Part shown: positions 17,071-39,140 of the stretch, in pieces | Position numbering within the stretch: the stretch's first letter is position 1 | How the letters are laid out: each line of letters begins with the position of its first letter | The notes under the pieces: model-generated | The model's database searches: none | What the model was told of the DNA's origin: nothing | The model's input: only the letters and a program-made list of their open reading frames with translations | Translations under genes and position numbers: made by a program | Assembly (NCBI GenBank): GCA_902604035.1 | Contig: CACKXG010000005.1 | Span: 1 to 42,920, forward strand | Length of the DNA: 42,920 nt | DNA from: an uncultured Pelagibacteraceae bacterium | GTDB taxonomy: Bacteria; Pseudomonadota; Alphaproteobacteria; Pelagibacterales; Pelagibacteraceae | Direction of reading: 5' to 3'

Positions 17071-17213
17071 TTTTTAATTTTAATATTTGGTTTAGTATTT
17101 ATATCCATCATTATTTTTTTTTGTTTTTTGTTTTTTTCATTTAATTTCATTTGTTTAGTTGTCTCACAAGAATTTAAAGTTAATAAAATAATTAAAAGTA
17201 AAATAGATCTCAT
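17067..17213 (-). CDS. Tiny putative lipoprotein embedded in the his operon (48 residues)
   Basis: I find an open frame of 48 codons between hisH and hisA. It reads MRSILLLIILLTLNSC (a short basic start, a hydrophobic core, and the lipobox L-N-S-C with Cys16), then a very polar, Lys-rich tail ETTKQMKLNEKNKKQKK-...-IKIKK. Its ATG overlaps the hisH stop by one base (TAATG) and its TGA overlaps the hisA ATG (ATGA). That exact fit to both neighbours is hard to get by chance and matches other junctions in the operon. After lipidation the mature part would be about 33 residues. Function is unknown; it may resemble other tiny membrane-anchored lipoproteins. Asn at -2 of the lipobox is uncommon but tolerated. 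Confidence 0.7.
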   Translation of the reverse strand: MRSILLLIILLTLNSCETTKQMKLNEKNKKQKKIMMDINTKPNIKIKK

Positions 17214-24327: not shown

Positions 24328-24911
24328 TATAATGATCCTAAATAATCCTTTATTTTTTTAACAGGAAGTCCCATAATAGTATCTTCATCACCTTCTATAC
24401 TTGCAAACAACTTTCTGCCCTCTCCCTCTATTTGGTATACATTATATGCGTAAAGGGTTGCATCGGGTATTTTAGATAAATAATTTTTTAATTCATCATC
24501 AGAAAAATTTTTCATAGTTAGTTTTGCCTTATCAGTATAGTTCCAAATCATAGATCCATTTTTTGATATACACACGGAACTTATTAAAAAATGTGATTTA
24601 CCATTGAGTTTTCTTAATATTTCCATGGCTTCTTTTCTGCTTTCTGGCTTAGATATTAATTCGCCATCCAAATCTATCACGCTATCTGCCCCCAAGACAA
24701 TTTTGTCGGTTTTTTTCATGCTAACTTTGTTTGCTTTTAATTCAGCTAAGTTTTTTGAAATTATTTCTGAGCTTGCCTTTTCTTTTAATAAGCTTTCTTT
24801 TACAGGATCTTCGTCAATGTTTGATTGTTCTACAATGCATTCAATATTATTTTTATCTAAAATATCTTTTCTAACCTTGCTCTTTGATGCAAGAATAATT
24901 TTACTTAACAT
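24327..24911 (-). CDS. maf: Maf-family nucleotide pyrophosphatase
   Basis: A 194-residue house-cleaning enzyme that hydrolyses non-canonical or modified NTPs. ILASKSKVRKDIL at the start and VLGADSVIDLDGELISKP (with the conserved Asp76), then AMEILRKLNGKSHFLISSV, and YAYNVYQIEGEGRKLFASIEGD (read in parts) are Maf signatures. Its start overlaps the ppsR end by 11 bases. Confidence 0.93.
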   Translation of the reverse strand: MLSKIILASKSKVRKDILDKNNIECIVEQSNIDEDPVKESLLKEKASSEIISKNLAELKANKVSMKKTDKIVLGADSVIDLDGELISKPESRKEAMEILRKLNGKSHFLISSVCISKNGSMIWNYTDKAKLTMKNFSDDELKNYLSKIPDATLYAYNVYQIEGEGRKLFASIEGDEDTIMGLPVKKIKDYLGSL

Positions 24912-25728
24912 TGCTTAGGTATATTTCGTGAATTTTAATTATAGAAGCTGCTGTTTCTTCAACAGACTTTCTTGTAACATCTATGAGGGGCCATTTATAT
25001 TTTTGAAATGTTTTTTTTGCCTCTAAAACCTCTTTTTTAATATTCTCTAAATTTGTATATTCAATATTTTCTGTTTCTTTTAAAGAATTCATTCTATTTT
25101 TTCTCAAATCTGCCAATCTTTCTGGCTCCGTACTTAGTCCTACAACACATGTCATTTGTGGATTTTTTTTAAGGGACTCTGGCAAAGAATTTTCATTTAC
25201 TAACGGAATGTTTGACGTTTTAAAACCTTTGTTGGCTAAATAAATAGATGTTGGTGTTTTACTCGTTCTGCTAACGCCTACAAGAATAATATCAGATTTG
25301 TTTACTTCGTTAATTAAATTTCCATCATCATGATTCATTGTAAATTGAATTGCTTCAATTCTATCATAATACTCTTCATTCAATATATGTTGACCACTTG
25401 GCTCGTGTGTTGCTTTTTGATTTAATATTTTTGAAAAATTCAGAATTAAATTTCCTAAAACGCCAAAACATGGAATATTTTTATCCTCGCTCGCGTTTGC
25501 AAGGTATTTAGCTAAGTTGTTATCTACGATAGTATATAAGATTATTGAATTTTCATTTTTTTTTGCATCCTCTAGAATTTTTAGAATTTGATTTTCTGTC
25601 CTTGTAAAAGAGTAAGAATGAACCTTATATTCTATATTTAAAAATTGAGCCTTCAGGGCTAAAAATATTCTATCTAAAGTCTCACCCGTTGAGTCAGATA
25701 TTAAATATATTTGATATGTATTACTCAT
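24901..25728 (-). CDS. PPSR/PDRP-type kinase-pyrophosphorylase (DUF299)
   Basis: A 275-residue bifunctional regulator that phosphorylates (with ADP) and dephosphorylates pyruvate phosphate dikinase or PEP synthase. LISDSTGETLDRIFLALKAQF at the N-terminus and the nucleotide-binding GVSRTSKTPTSIYLANKGFK are diagnostic, with VGLSTEPERLADLRKNRM and the late PLIDVTRKSVEETAA. Which partner it controls cannot be told here; no ppdK or ppsA lies in the window. It is the gene flanking the candidate oriC on the left, the conserved position in alphaproteobacteria. Confidence 0.95.
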   Translation of the reverse strand: MSNTYQIYLISDSTGETLDRIFLALKAQFLNIEYKVHSYSFTRTENQILKILEDAKKNENSIILYTIVDNNLAKYLANASEDKNIPCFGVLGNLILNFSKILNQKATHEPSGQHILNEEYYDRIEAIQFTMNHDDGNLINEVNKSDIILVGVSRTSKTPTSIYLANKGFKTSNIPLVNENSLPESLKKNPQMTCVVGLSTEPERLADLRKNRMNSLKETENIEYTNLENIKKEVLEAKKTFQKYKWPLIDVTRKSVEETAASIIKIHEIYLSNVK

Positions 25729-25995
25729 GAATAAATTGTTAATAAGTTTGTAATATTTTAATTAAATTACACAATTTAAAATTTTTTAAATTAACCTTGT
25801 AAAAACTGCTATTTATTAACATTAATAATAAATAGGGTAAAACAATCCACAAAAATTAATATGATCAAAAAAGCTTCATTTTAAACAATTTTAACCACAT
25901 TAGATGTTGGTAAATTGTGAATATAATGTTTATAAAAATTAATCACCTTTATTCACAAGATATATTACAACTACAATAATTAATAATACTTATTT
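25729..25995. other. Candidate chromosomal replication origin (oriC)
   Basis: This 267-base gap, the longest in the window, lies between divergent ppsR and hemE, the position of the Caulobacter and Rickettsia origins as I recall it. It holds one perfect DnaA-box consensus (TTATTCACA, 25949-25957) and four one-mismatch boxes: ATATTCACA on the minus strand at 25916-25924, TTAACCACA at 25891-25899, TTATTAACA at 25813-25821 and, on the minus strand, TTATTAACA at 25737-25745. The first two form a 9-base inverted repeat (TTGTGAATA / TATTCACAA) spaced by 26 bases. The rest is extremely AT-rich, suited to unwinding. Genes on both sides point away from it for several kilobases, and a parS site lies 11 kb to the right. 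It must also contain the ppsR and hemE promoters. Confidence 0.65.
25949..25957 (+). promoter_or_regulatory. DnaA box TTATTCACA
   Basis: An exact match to the TTATNCACA consensus inside the ppsR-hemE gap. It is paired with the one-mismatch minus-strand box at 25916-25924. Confidence 0.6.
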
Positions 25996-27000
25996 ATGAA
26001 ACCATTAAACAGAGTAATAACTAACAAAGATACCTCATTCAATCCTATATGGATAATGAGGCAAGCAGGTAGATATTTACCAGAATTTAGAAAAATTAGG
26101 AAAGAAAATCCTAACTTTATTAATCTATGTTTAAATGAAGACTTGTCTTCAGAAATAACTCTACAACCTCTTAGAAGATTTGATTTTGACGCAGCAATAA
26201 TTTTTTCAGATATTTTAATGCTTCCATATGGATTAGGTCAAAAAGTAGAATTTGAAAAAAACTTTGGTCCAAAATTGGGCGAATTAAATTTAAATGAAAT
26301 TGTAAAGACTGATGAAATCGATTTTGTAGAAAAAATACATCGTGTATATAAGGCAATTAAAAAAGTTAGCTCTAACACTAACCTTAAAAATAAAAATACT
26401 ATTGGTTTTATTGGCGCTCCATGGACATTATTAGTTTATATGATTAATCAGCAGTCTCCCAAAAAAAATTTGAAAAAAGATTTCTTTAAAGATGAGTTTT
26501 TAATAAATAGAATTTTATTAATTATTGAAAAATTTTTAAAAGTACATATCAAAAACCAAATTGATAATGGCGCAAACGTAATACAAATATTTGATAGCTG
26601 GGCAGGTTTATTAGAAGAAAAAGATTTACCCAACTATGTTTATGCCCCAACTTTAAATTTAGTAAACTTTGTAAAATCTTTAAATGTTCCAGTGATATGT
26701 TTCCCTAGAGAAATAAAAAATTATAAAGACTTTTGCGACATTGTTAAACCTGACGCTATAAGTATTGATTACAACGTTGATCCTAAAAAAATACTTAGAG
26801 ATATTAAAATACCTATTCAAGGCGGTTTAGACCCTAAAATTTTATTAACAGACAAAGAAACTTTGAAAAAGGAAGCCTCTAATTATTTGGAAATCTTTAA
26901 AGATCATCCATATATATTTAATCTTGGACATGGTATTTTGCCCGAAACTAATTCAGAAATGGTAGAAAATTTAATTAAAATTGTAAGAGATTTTAAATGA
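25996..27000 (+). CDS. hemE: Uroporphyrinogen decarboxylase
   Basis: A 334-residue TIM-barrel enzyme that removes four carboxyls from uroporphyrinogen III to give coproporphyrinogen. The substrate-binding WIMRQAGRYLPEFRKIR (residues 19-35) is the family signature. FDAAIIFSDILMLPYGLG, GFIGAPWTLLVYM, QIFDSWAGLL, QGGLDPKIL and FNLGHGILPET follow in the expected order. It begins a run of plus-strand haem genes and overlaps hemH by four bases. Confidence 0.98.
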   Translation: MKPLNRVITNKDTSFNPIWIMRQAGRYLPEFRKIRKENPNFINLCLNEDLSSEITLQPLRRFDFDAAIIFSDILMLPYGLGQKVEFEKNFGPKLGELNLNEIVKTDEIDFVEKIHRVYKAIKKVSSNTNLKNKNTIGFIGAPWTLLVYMINQQSPKKNLKKDFFKDEFLINRILLIIEKFLKVHIKNQIDNGANVIQIFDSWAGLLEEKDLPNYVYAPTLNLVNFVKSLNVPVICFPREIKNYKDFCDIVKPDAISIDYNVDPKKILRDIKIPIQGGLDPKILLTDKETLKKEASNYLEIFKDHPYIFNLGHGILPETNSEMVENLIKIVRDFK

Positions 27001-36841: not shown

Positions 36842-37485
36842 TGGATCAGGAAATTTTAAATTCTTATTCTAGAATCAATCACTTAAATGTTTCACGTGAA
36901 ACATTTTTGGACTTTGAAAACTATATATCTATGATTCTTGAAAAAAATAAAAAAATTAACATAATTAGCCAAAATACAGCATCAAAAAAGGCAATAATTG
37001 ACCGTCATATTATAGATTCTGCACAAATTATTGATTTTGTTGACTTAAAGAGCAATACAACTACAGATATAGGTTCAGGAGGGGGTATGCCAGGTATAAT
37101 CGTGGCAATTATACTAAAAAATATGAAAAATAATATGAATGTGCACCTTTATGAAAAAAGTTACCATAAAAGCCATTTTTTAAAGGAAGTTTCAAAAAAA
37201 TTAAATCTAAACACAAAGGTTTTTCAAAAAAATATTTTTGAAATAAAAAATTTAGAAACAGGAACGATAATGTCCAGAGCATTTAAACCAATGCCAGTAG
37301 TTTTAGAATTAGTATATGAAAATTTTTCAAAATATAAAAATTTAATTTTTTTTATGGGGAAAAGTGGAAAAAAAATTTTTGAAAATTCCAAAAAAAATTG
37401 GGATCTGGAGTATACAGAAAAGAAAAGTTTAACAAGTGAAGACTCATTTTTAATAAATATTAAAAAAATTAAAAAAAAAAATTAA
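36841..37485 (+). CDS. rsmG: 16S rRNA m7G527 methyltransferase RsmG (GidB)
   Basis: A 214-residue SAM-dependent methyltransferase that methylates N7 of G527 in 16S rRNA. LNVSRETFLDFENYISMILEKNKKINI (read in parts) and DRHIIDSAQIIDF precede the SAM site TDIGSGGGMPGIIVAI (about residues 75-90), with SRAFKPMP as motif IV-like. Bases 36885-36906 within its first 25 codons form a parS site and encode the NVSRETF stretch. The C-terminus is a lysine tail (KKIKKKN) in an A-rich run that leads straight to parA 21 bases on. Confidence 0.96.
   Translation: MDQEILNSYSRINHLNVSRETFLDFENYISMILEKNKKINIISQNTASKKAIIDRHIIDSAQIIDFVDLKSNTTTDIGSGGGMPGIIVAIILKNMKNNMNVHLYEKSYHKSHFLKEVSKKLNLNTKVFQKNIFEIKNLETGTIMSRAFKPMPVVLELVYENFSKYKNLIFFMGKSGKKIFENSKKNWDLEYTEKKSLTSEDSFLINIKKIKKKN
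36885..36906. promoter_or_regulatory. parS centromere site inside rsmG
   Basis: The 16-base core TGTTTCACGTGAAACA (36888-36903) is an exact match to the canonical chromosomal parS and extends to a perfect 22-base palindrome. ParB binds it and spreads to form the segregation complex. It lies about 600 bases before parA and 11 kb from the candidate oriC, which is the usual origin-proximal location. I found no second full parS in the window. Confidence 0.93.
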
Positions 37486-37506: not shown

Positions 37507-38301
37507 ATGCAAATTATTTCGGTCATAAATCAAAAGGGTGGGGTTGGAAAAACTACTACGGTGATTAATCTTGCAGCAGGTTTATCTCAAATAGATAAAA
37601 AAATTTTAGTAGTTGACCTAGATCCACAAGGTAATGCTACCACAGGTCTAGGATTATCTAATACGGATAACTCAAGTGATACAATTTACGGAGTTTTGAA
37701 TGGAACTAGAGAAATTAGTGAGGTGATTAAAAAAACACAGTTCAAAAATTTAGATATTATCACATCCAATGTAGATTTATCAGGTTTAGAAGTAGAGACG
37801 GCTGATGATAATAACAGGGCTTTTATACTAAAGACTAAATTAACCGCATATTTAAACGATTCTAGAAGTTTATATGATTATGTCTTGGTTGATTGCCCAC
37901 CTTCATTGAGCTTATTAACAGTAATGGCTCTTGTAAGCTCGAATTCATTATTGGTGCCACTTCAAACTGAATTTTTTGCACTAGAGGGCTTAACACAGCT
38001 AATGAAAACAATTGAAAGGATAAAAATAAGTTTAAATCCAGATTTGAAAATTAGGGGCATACTTTTAACGATGTACGACAAAAGAAATAAGCTTTCATCT
38101 CAAGTAGAGAAAGAAGCTAGAGATTATTTTAGTGAAAAAGTTTACTCAACTGTCATACCAAGGAATGTCAGATTATCAGAAGCACCTTCCCATGGCATGC
38201 CAGTATTGATTTATGACAAGACATGTCCTGGAAGTAAATCTTATTTTAGTTTTACTGACGAGTTTATAAATCAAGAATCAACAATTGGGAGTGCTGCTTA
38301 A
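37507..38301 (+). CDS. parA: Chromosome partitioning ATPase ParA
   Basis: A 264-residue deviant-Walker ATPase that moves the ParB-parS complex. NQKGGVGKTTTVINLA holds the deviant Walker A (residues 10-17, signature Lys10). LVVDLDPQGNATTGLGL is Walker A', and YVLVDCPPSLSLLTVMAL is Walker B. VIPRNVRLSEAPSHGMPVLIYD is typical of chromosomal ParA/Soj near the C-terminus. Its stop overlaps the parB ATG by one base. Confidence 0.98.
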   Translation: MQIISVINQKGGVGKTTTVINLAAGLSQIDKKILVVDLDPQGNATTGLGLSNTDNSSDTIYGVLNGTREISEVIKKTQFKNLDIITSNVDLSGLEVETADDNNRAFILKTKLTAYLNDSRSLYDYVLVDCPPSLSLLTVMALVSSNSLLVPLQTEFFALEGLTQLMKTIERIKISLNPDLKIRGILLTMYDKRNKLSSQVEKEARDYFSEKVYSTVIPRNVRLSEAPSHGMPVLIYDKTCPGSKSYFSFTDEFINQESTIGSAA

Positions 38302-39140
38302 TGGATAAAATTAAAAAAGGATTAGGAAGAGGACTTTCATCGTTGATTGGTGAGACAAAAATTGAACCTCAAAAAAATCAAGTATCAATTAGTGATCTGA
38401 TTCCAAACAAGTATCAACCAAGAAAGATATTTGATGAAGCTAGTTTGGAAGATCTAACAAATTCAATTAAAGAAAGAGGAATGATACAGCCTATAATCGT
38501 TAGAAATTCTAACGATGATAGATCAAAGTTTGAAATAATTGCCGGTGAGAGAAGATGGCTGGCAGCACAAAGAGCAGGTCTTCATAATGTGCCTGTTGTA
38601 ATAACAGAAGCAGATGATTTAAAATCTTTAGAATTTGCTATTGTAGAAAATGTTCAAAGGCACGACCTTAATCCTCTTGAAGAAGCACAAGGATACAAAA
38701 AACTTATTGATGAATTTTCTTACGATCAAGATAAAGTATCAAAATTCATTGGAAAAAGCAGAAGTTATATTGCAAACTCTTTAAGACTTTTAACTTTGCC
38801 TGATGATGTAATTAAATTAATTGAAACTCAAAAATTAACAGCAGGTCACGCAAAAATTTTAGTTGGTCTTGAAAATGCAAGTTTTGTTGCAAATAAAATT
38901 ATTGAAAAAAGACTTACTGTAAGACAAGTTGAAAATTTTGTTAGAATCTTTAAAAATAAAAAAAAGACCAAGTTATCTAAGGACTCTAACTTAATTGCCC
39001 TTGAATTATCTATTTCAAATAAAATTGGTTTAAATGTTGATATACAAAATAATAAAAGAAATAAAGGTAAAATAAGTTTTGAATATAAAGATTTAGATCA
39101 ATTAAATAAGATTATAGATATAATTAAATCTTATTATTAA
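38301..39140 (+). CDS. parB: Chromosome partitioning protein ParB (CTP-dependent clamp)
   Basis: A 279-residue parS-binding protein. The N-terminal KKGLGRGLSSLIG binds ParA in homologs. IPNKYQPRKIFD and IAGERRWLAAQRAGL are the CTP-binding boxes (the G-E-R-R arginine patch), and VENVQRHDLNPLEEAQGYK completes the CTPase fold. The helix-turn-helix is about residues 138-165 (VSKFIGKSRSYIANSLRLL). The C-terminal dimerisation domain is short. The cognate parS lies in rsmG. The glycosyltransferase gene begins five bases after the stop. Confidence 0.98.
   Translation: MDKIKKGLGRGLSSLIGETKIEPQKNQVSISDLIPNKYQPRKIFDEASLEDLTNSIKERGMIQPIIVRNSNDDRSKFEIIAGERRWLAAQRAGLHNVPVVITEADDLKSLEFAIVENVQRHDLNPLEEAQGYKKLIDEFSYDQDKVSKFIGKSRSYIANSLRLLTLPDDVIKLIETQKLTAGHAKILVGLENASFVANKIIEKRLTVRQVENFVRIFKNKKKTKLSKDSNLIALELSISNKIGLNVDIQNNKRNKGKISFEYKDLDQLNKIIDIIKSYY

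Follow-up and report, generated by a model that had tools for sequence, protein, structure and literature searches.

The window, a stretch of 42,920 nucleotides, is contig 5 of a genome assembled to 799,750 bases in 51 contigs and 65% complete. Close relatives of this genome are entered in the genome collection as Pelagibacteraceae or Candidatus Pelagibacter, that is, SAR11. SAR11 ranks among the most abundant groups of bacteria in the ocean. An earlier note on this DNA proposed a candidate chromosomal origin of replication between ppsR and hemE, and we followed up this proposal in the window and in related genomes.

The ppsR–hemE gap and its surroundings

According to the list of open reading frames and profile models, positions 25729–25995 form a 267-bp gap from which ppsR (minus strand, 24901–25728) and hemE (plus strand, 25996–27000) diverge. 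Both flanking genes score above the cut-off of a curated model: ppsR, the PEP synthase/PPDK regulator of COG1806, has 304.3 bits against NF003742 (cut-off 225), and hemE has 314.7 bits against TIGR01464 (cut-off 302.95). The next-largest gap between main open reading frames, as read from the list, is about 142 bp (17071–17212), and the description of the locus as the largest gene-free gap, with divergent flanking genes, is correct on both counts. Further out on the ppsR side are maf (slightly below the TIGR00172 cut-off), dnaQ and a Tim44-family gene; on the hemE side are hemH, rho, rsmG/gidB (96.8 bits, slightly below the cut-off of 99.5), parA and parB. The window also holds aroE and coaE, identified by eye from their translations. 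A perfect parS (TGTTTCACGTGAAACA) lies on the plus strand at 36888–36903; it is a single match, and none was found in 100 shuffles even at two mismatches. It sits inside the rsmG/gidB coding sequence, where the protein reads Asn-Val-Ser-Arg-Glu-Thr-Phe. The parA and parB genes occupy 37507–39140 on the plus strand, with parB above the TIGR00180 cut-off and parA matching ParA-family models below their cut-offs. The start of parA is 11.5 kb from the gap, in agreement with the placement of parS and parAB within 12 kb.

The same two gene neighbours, hemE and COG1806, are given in Table 1 of PMC1914354 as the flanks of the Caulobacter and Rickettsia origins, as the earlier note had pointed out. A Caulobacter-type origin lies between or beside these genes, as does the gap, and since the flanks are published for Caulobacter and Rickettsia, the origin's place in SAR11 is an expected one.

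The arrangement is kept across the genus. A divergent ppsR/hemE pair is present in 108 of 110 genus loci, the window included, with the genes 261–284 bp apart; the two remaining loci (L036 and L113) are at contig ends, with no ppsR on the contig. The 110 loci comprise the best 30 of 51 ppsR matches, the window (L005) among them, and the best 80 of 288 hemE matches; some may share a genome, and they yield 105 distinct gap sequences, equivalent to about 16 after weighting. ATT stands at the aligned hemE start codon of L030 and L031, whose gap length is therefore approximate. Across the order, ppsR was detected in 118 of 148 genomes. It is missing from five genus genomes that are at least 90% complete; four of these also have no hemE, and in the fifth hemE lies at the end of a contig. 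The assemblies may have gaps at the origin in these cases, or the genes may truly have been lost.

The gap is 82.8% AT, compared with 71.7% for the window. The AT content had been called extreme; it is high, but 775 of 42,653 sliding windows are equally AT-rich, and we rejected AT content as proof of an origin. The stretch from the core DnaA box (below) to the hemE start codon, 25958–25995, is 86.8% AT and is the presumed duplex-opening region: in composition, it is the AT-rich region beside the boxes that an oriC is expected to have. Since two genes diverge from the gap, their promoters probably lie in it. This, along with the AT content, is what would be seen if the gap were merely the divergent ppsR/hemE promoter region, with AT-rich promoter motifs mimicking DnaA boxes. 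The counts of boxes, their persistence next to other genes and the symmetry of the chromosome, all described below, speak against such a reading, which we consider very improbable; promoters may instead coexist with the origin in the gap. A further stretch, 25868–25884, contains AAGCTTCA and by eye is conserved in part of the genus; it is not a DnaA box.

DnaA boxes, a phased array and a triplet element

The full dnaA gene was not found in the window's own genome (65% complete, 51 contigs), and box consensus sequences were judged from related proteins. Domain IV of SAR11 DnaA aligns well with that of E. coli DnaA (1j1v), and the RPRQ and RDHTT motifs of this domain are kept in 20 of 20 genus proteins, which makes an E. 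coli-like box consensus reasonable. The core DnaA box, TTATTCACA, lies on the plus strand at 25949–25957. By weighted information over the 105 distinct genus sequences, no other 9-mer of the gap is as well conserved, and it is the only exact copy of TTATNCACA in 42.9 kb. Strict TTATCCACA has no exact copy in the gap or in the rest of the window. Whether this is the "perfect" box of the earlier note consequently depends on the consensus: it is perfect against TTATNCACA but has one mismatch to strict TTATCCACA. At up to one mismatch to TTATNCACA there are six sites in the gap compared with a shuffle mean of 0.87, and none of 1000 shuffles reached six; five of these sites, rather than the four counted earlier, carry the mismatch (at 25737, 25813, 25891, 25916 and 25927). 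The 9-base inverted repeat across 26 bases is exact, with arms at 25915–25923 and 25950–25958 and 26 nt between them.

Exact matches to TTATNMACA number four in the window's gap and 0.22 in shuffles. They include TTATTAACA on the minus strand at 25737–25745, adjoining ppsR, which is conserved (the G at 25738 has a weighted frequency of 0.91), and TTATTAACA on the plus strand at 25813–25821, which comes second in conservation among the non-overlapping 9-mers of the gap. In 17 genus representatives less than 80% identical there are 56 such sites compared with 3.6 in shuffles; for 19 gaps taken from the family's other genera the figures are 47 and 2.8. The boxes are therefore conserved in the same gap of related strains, in the genus as well as beyond it, as one of the checks proposed in the earlier note asked. 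The excess in the genus, about 15-fold, was obtained against shuffles that preserve dinucleotides, which argues against promoter motifs as the source of the boxes. A cluster of DnaA boxes above chance, as is expected of a DnaA-dependent bacterial oriC, is present in the gap. Strict TTATCCACA was rejected as an origin marker on its own, with four copies in the window's whole genome and none in the contig, and so was TTATCCACA at up to one mismatch, with 15 sites in the window compared with 13.97 by chance.

Upstream of the core box and in the opposite orientation is a row of weaker boxes. Relative to the core box, the sites on the minus strand are TTATAAACA at offset −22 (25927–25935), the weak box ATATTCACA at −33 (25916–25924) and, outermost, the weak box TTACCAACA at −44 (25905–25913); they are 11 bp apart with 2-bp gaps between them. 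Minus-strand box matches peak at exactly these offsets, with 7.4, 6.6 and 6.7 of 8 positions matched at −22, −33 and −44 over a background of about 3. At −22, at least six of eight positions match in all 16 genus representatives and in 10 of the 14 other-genus gaps; the numbers are the same at −33, and 13 of 16 representatives match at −44, where the 14 other-genus gaps show no peak. These counts cover 16 of the 17 representatives (L030 omitted) and 14 of the 19 other-genus gaps (L137, L139, L143, L144 and L147 omitted), the omitted gaps having their best-scoring site elsewhere in the gap, and the other-genus anchors come from a score that rewards the triplet element described below. A strict array-plus-box pattern finds matches in 3 of 12 genomes, in each solely in the origin gap, and misses the other 9; run backwards as a control, it gives one match each in 2 of the 12. 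The gap had been called box-poor, which does not hold when weak conserved boxes are counted; the phased array of weak boxes had been overlooked.

On the other side of the core box, a 4-bp spacer (AGAT, plus strand, 25958–25961) leads into a predicted trio-like opening element on the minus strand at 25962–25976. It consists of five triplets, 3'-TAT AAT GTT GAT GTT-5', with an invariant T: in the genus alignment, the plus-strand A at 25964, 25967, 25970, 25973 and 25976 has a weighted frequency of 1.0. When the box is chosen without regard to the triplets, all five triplets follow at a 4-bp spacer in 105 of 108 genus gaps (the register is missed in L018, L030 and L031), compared with 0.76% of 3172 box-like sites that served as background, taken from the sampled stretches in four genomes; since the genus sequences are related, the 108 gaps are not independent events. 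At best sites, p ≤ 0.05 for the element is reached individually by 16 of the 17 genus representatives and by 11 of the 19 gaps from other genera. Percentages for other genera on score-derived anchors are biased, because the score rewards the triplet element; the count anchored on the box alone is free of this bias, and with it all five third positions fit in 8 of the 19 gaps. In 16 genus representatives T is found in 80 of 80 triplets and a central A in about 58 of 80, and in the 19 other-genus gaps, on the box-only anchor and with some gaps off register, T is found in 74 of 95 and a central A in 50 of 95.

The five triplets resemble DnaA-trios, with T as the invariant base instead of the usual central A. 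The published trio consensus is 3'-GAT-5' with a conserved central A (PMC8287927), and from the 5'-tail scaffolds described in that paper we infer that published trios are on the strand with its 5' end directed away from the box. A basal unwinding system (BUS), as known from B. subtilis, calls for a DnaA box with at most two mismatches within 16 bp of the trios, and the window has such a box in TTATTCACA, at one mismatch and with a 4-bp spacer. It also calls for at least three consecutive 3'-NAN-5' triplets; the window has two consecutive ones and three of five overall, while at least three in a row are found in several relatives, for example L010, L022 and, in the sister family, L298 and L299. 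The triplet element, like the array, was absent from the anatomy given in the earlier note, whose origin call itself stands.

The element persists where the neighbouring genes differ. In genus g2, represented by two complete genomes (G061 and G067), rho takes the place of hemE beside the gap. G061 keeps the box TTATAAACA, the 4 bp and five A-ending triplets, with the box starting 136 nt before rho, and the same box-plus-triplet element is legible by eye in G067 (of these two g2 loci, both among 20 stretches taken from other genera, the former, L290, enters the counts; the latter, L291, was read by eye only). Elsewhere, g2 has only a distant hemE-like match, with 32% identity and about 577 kb from the gap in G061. 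None of the 15 genomes searched from sister family f2 yielded a ppsR, and in G064 of this family maf, identified by eye, and hemE face each other across 271 bp. Of four f2 genomes (L297–L300), two contain CTACTACTACTA 4 bp plus one triplet past a weak box, in the same register; by eye, the weak boxes have two and three mismatches. The other two carry CAA-rich versions of the element. Since the element is kept where hemE or ppsR is missing, it is not tied to one neighbour's promoter, and the persistence of core box and triplets in g2 and in the sister family, where no ppsR was found, likewise argues against the gap being a promoter region alone.

The gap could be an origin and the triplets at 25962–25976 could still be kept for some other reason, as part of a promoter or leader, with opening taking place elsewhere in the gap. 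A central A, which according to PMC10721633 is preferred by B. subtilis DnaA, is found in just three of the five window triplets. Against this stand the identical 4-bp register past the box in almost all genus gaps, the presence of the element before rho in g2 and, in the sister family, the occurrence of CTACTACTACTA, the complement of the published GAT trios, in half of the four genomes. We regard such a different role for the triplets as rather unlikely, and prefer to see in them a putative opening element.

Strand asymmetry and inversion symmetry of the chromosome

As the window's genome is 65% complete, skew was taken from relatives: twenty 20-kb samples (400 kb) per genome, spaced by 60–75 kb, in four complete genomes. 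Mean skew either side of the gap is 0.057 and −0.044 in G080, 0.054 and −0.058 in G012, 0.057 and −0.070 in G061, and 0.028 and −0.051 in G073. The best balanced two-arm split falls at 935, 1275, 155 and 220 kb in these genomes, respectively, with the gap at 910, 1262, 141 and 234 kb, that is, 13–25 kb from the gap in four of four (permutation p = 0.0075, 0.0024, 0.0001 and 0.0158). The earlier note had named a skew minimum elsewhere as evidence that would count against the origin; in the relatives, where this was checked, the position of the balanced split gives no sign of it. The switch in strand asymmetry with the terminus opposite that is expected of an oriC is present in all four complete relatives. 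The cruder interpolated cumulative minimum lies at 962, 1176, 164 and 73 kb, 23–161 kb from the gap (161 kb in G073, 86 kb in G012). Given the sparse samples and the displaced minima, skew alone indicates the neighbourhood only. In G080 and G012, third-codon skew on the gene strand is mostly positive on both arms with no switch between them, and the skew therefore mostly follows gene orientation.

Gene positions give a second, different view. The distance from the gap of dnaA, gcrA and three response-regulator groups is roughly kept, while the side on which they lie is switched between genera; dnaA is at +63, +64, −71 and −72 kb in four complete genomes. The gap is the best of 100 reflection axes (its antipode necessarily gives the same value), with a mean spread, as a fraction of the genome, of 0.0176, compared with 0.0185 for the axis 1% ppsR-ward, 0.0216 for that 1% hemE-ward and a median of 0.069. 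The test used 8 of 11 complete genomes and five gene groups, with dnaA in four of the eight; the groups were set by score rank and by eye, without trees, and genomes of the same genus share history. In eight complete genomes, a short OmpR-type protein (L284, L286, L288) with an apparently decayed receiver domain is encoded 17–28 kb from the origin; in the window's genus its gene is on the side of hemE, in other genera on that of ppsR.

These data bear on the possibility that replication starts elsewhere in the region, for example at dnaA, and that the gap is a DnaA-titrating or regulatory cluster. The location of dnaA 63–72 kb off in the four complete genomes and the displacement of the cumulative minimum would be compatible with it, and accessory DnaA clusters do exist, for example E. 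coli datA (PMC5742627). However, the inversion axis is best at the gap, if only slightly better than 1% ppsR-ward, and disfavours the dnaA locus, which lies at a distance of about 5% of the genome and is found on different sides in different genera. Triplet elements of this type are known from origins, where they serve in opening (PMC8287927), and the place between hemE and COG1806 is the published one in Caulobacter and Rickettsia (PMC1914354). A start elsewhere in the region appears least probable of all the alternatives, marginally below a promoter region alone, against which the centring of both skew and inversion symmetry on the gap also argues.

We conclude that the gap at 25729–25995 is very probably the chromosomal origin (oriC) of this SAR11 bacterium, with a probability of roughly nine in ten. 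This prediction draws on its location, conservation and spacing, its length being kept in the genus, on the skew split and inversion axis in complete relatives, and on the usual box-reading residues in the relatives' DnaA. The candidate put forward in the earlier note is supported, and neither the skew nor the conservation of the boxes turned out against it. Read depth in SAR11 is described as V-shaped, with one origin and one terminus, in a passage of PMC9589681 that does not name the locus.

A probable origin with a possible T-anchored opening element

In the model that we propose, DnaA would bind the core box at 25949 and the oppositely oriented weaker boxes one helical turn apart (25905, 25916 and 25927), with further boxes at 25813 and 25737. 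A DnaA oligomer would then spread from the core box onto the minus strand at 25962–25976, one subunit per T-ending triplet, and the AT-rich stretch before hemE would melt to allow helicase entry. B. subtilis DnaA contacts the central A through Asn187 and the T through Asn196; it prefers a central A, and an A-to-T change there impairs initiation (PMC10721633). By alignment, the position of residue 187 is Tyr and that of 196 Asn in 20 of 20 genus DnaA proteins, and the same pair is found in three of five other-genus proteins, the three readable ones; all four DnaA proteins of sister family f2 have Phe at 187 and Lys at 196. The altered residue at 187 may account for the altered triplet motif. 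A simple one-to-one rule between residue and motif is contradicted by f2, which has Phe187 yet perfect GAT repeats in two genomes. It is possible, though on balance doubtful, that SAR11 opens its origin by a T-anchored DnaA-trio, 3'-N(A/T)T-5', read by a DnaA with an aromatic residue in place of the base-capturing Asn; we offer this tentatively.

The regulatory sites of the Caulobacter origin are largely missing. The CtrA site TTAA-N7-TTAA is absent from the window's gap and present in 18 of 108 genus gaps, and none of the 11 complete relatives has a CtrA protein that passes NF045991 (best match 148 bits, cut-off 350). One of 14 control genomes scores above this cut-off; the model is named for Rhodobacterales CtrA, and a very diverged CtrA could escape it. 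The combination of CtrA sites and CtrA seen in Caulobacter-type origins is thus not found here, and neither is an IHF site, as neither published IHF consensus occurs in the window's gap; one consensus or the other is matched in 5 and in 12 of the 108 genus gaps. Each of the 11 complete relatives has three HU/IHF-family proteins and GcrA. SAR11 is reported to have a CcrM homologue (PMC3973325), and according to PMC9516812, in a statement that does not name the locus, Pelagibacter DNA carries less GANTC methylation near ori. GANTC is found in none of the 108 gaps, where a methylation link would thus have no site, and we rejected its avoidance at the origin as not significant, with just 1.8 sites expected in the 17 representatives.

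The SAR11 gap resembles the Caulobacter crescentus and Rickettsia origins in PMC1914354 in its flanks, in having several DnaA boxes and in being AT-richer than the genome; it is shorter (267 bp compared with 383–404 bp) and, unlike Caulobacter, its window copy has no CtrA site or IHF consensus and none of the complete relatives has CtrA above the cut-off. With the B. subtilis BUS described in PMC8287927 and PMC10721633 it shares a box with one mismatch to TTATCCACA, a short spacer, triplets on the matching strand and, in several relatives, GAT-type triplets. In contrast to that system, the most constant base is T, the central base is mostly A or T, and B. subtilis Asn187 is replaced by Tyr, or by Phe in the sister family. 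In the left half of E. coli oriC, rows of same-oriented weak boxes are 2–4 bp apart (PMC5742627), as are the SAR11 ones at 2 bp, and the TTATT and TTGT words on the minus strand of the SAR11 element are like the E. coli single-strand motifs in the same paper; unlike the E. coli half, the SAR11 gap has fewer boxes, a core box opposite to the row and no IHF consensus.

A literature search at the level of titles and beginnings of abstracts found, among the papers listed, no description of this SAR11 origin, and no paper on a DnaA-trio in Pelagibacter. DoriC-type databases of predicted origins probably list a Pelagibacter origin. As far as this search showed, the internal anatomy and the variant trio are new. 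At least one metagenomic estimate of SAR11 replication takes as its starting point a terminus located through read coverage (PMC9589681), and a base-resolved origin would be a fixed point for such estimates. The predicted anatomy means that an alphaproteobacterial origin without CtrA and IHF consensus sites keeps a core box, helically phased weak boxes and a triplet opening element. With the constant base shifted from the central A to the T, and with the DnaA contact residue changed as well, the recognition of single-stranded origin DNA becomes directly testable; if the tentative reading is true, the T-anchored trio would represent a second code by which single-stranded origin DNA is read, here in an origin that has lost CtrA control.
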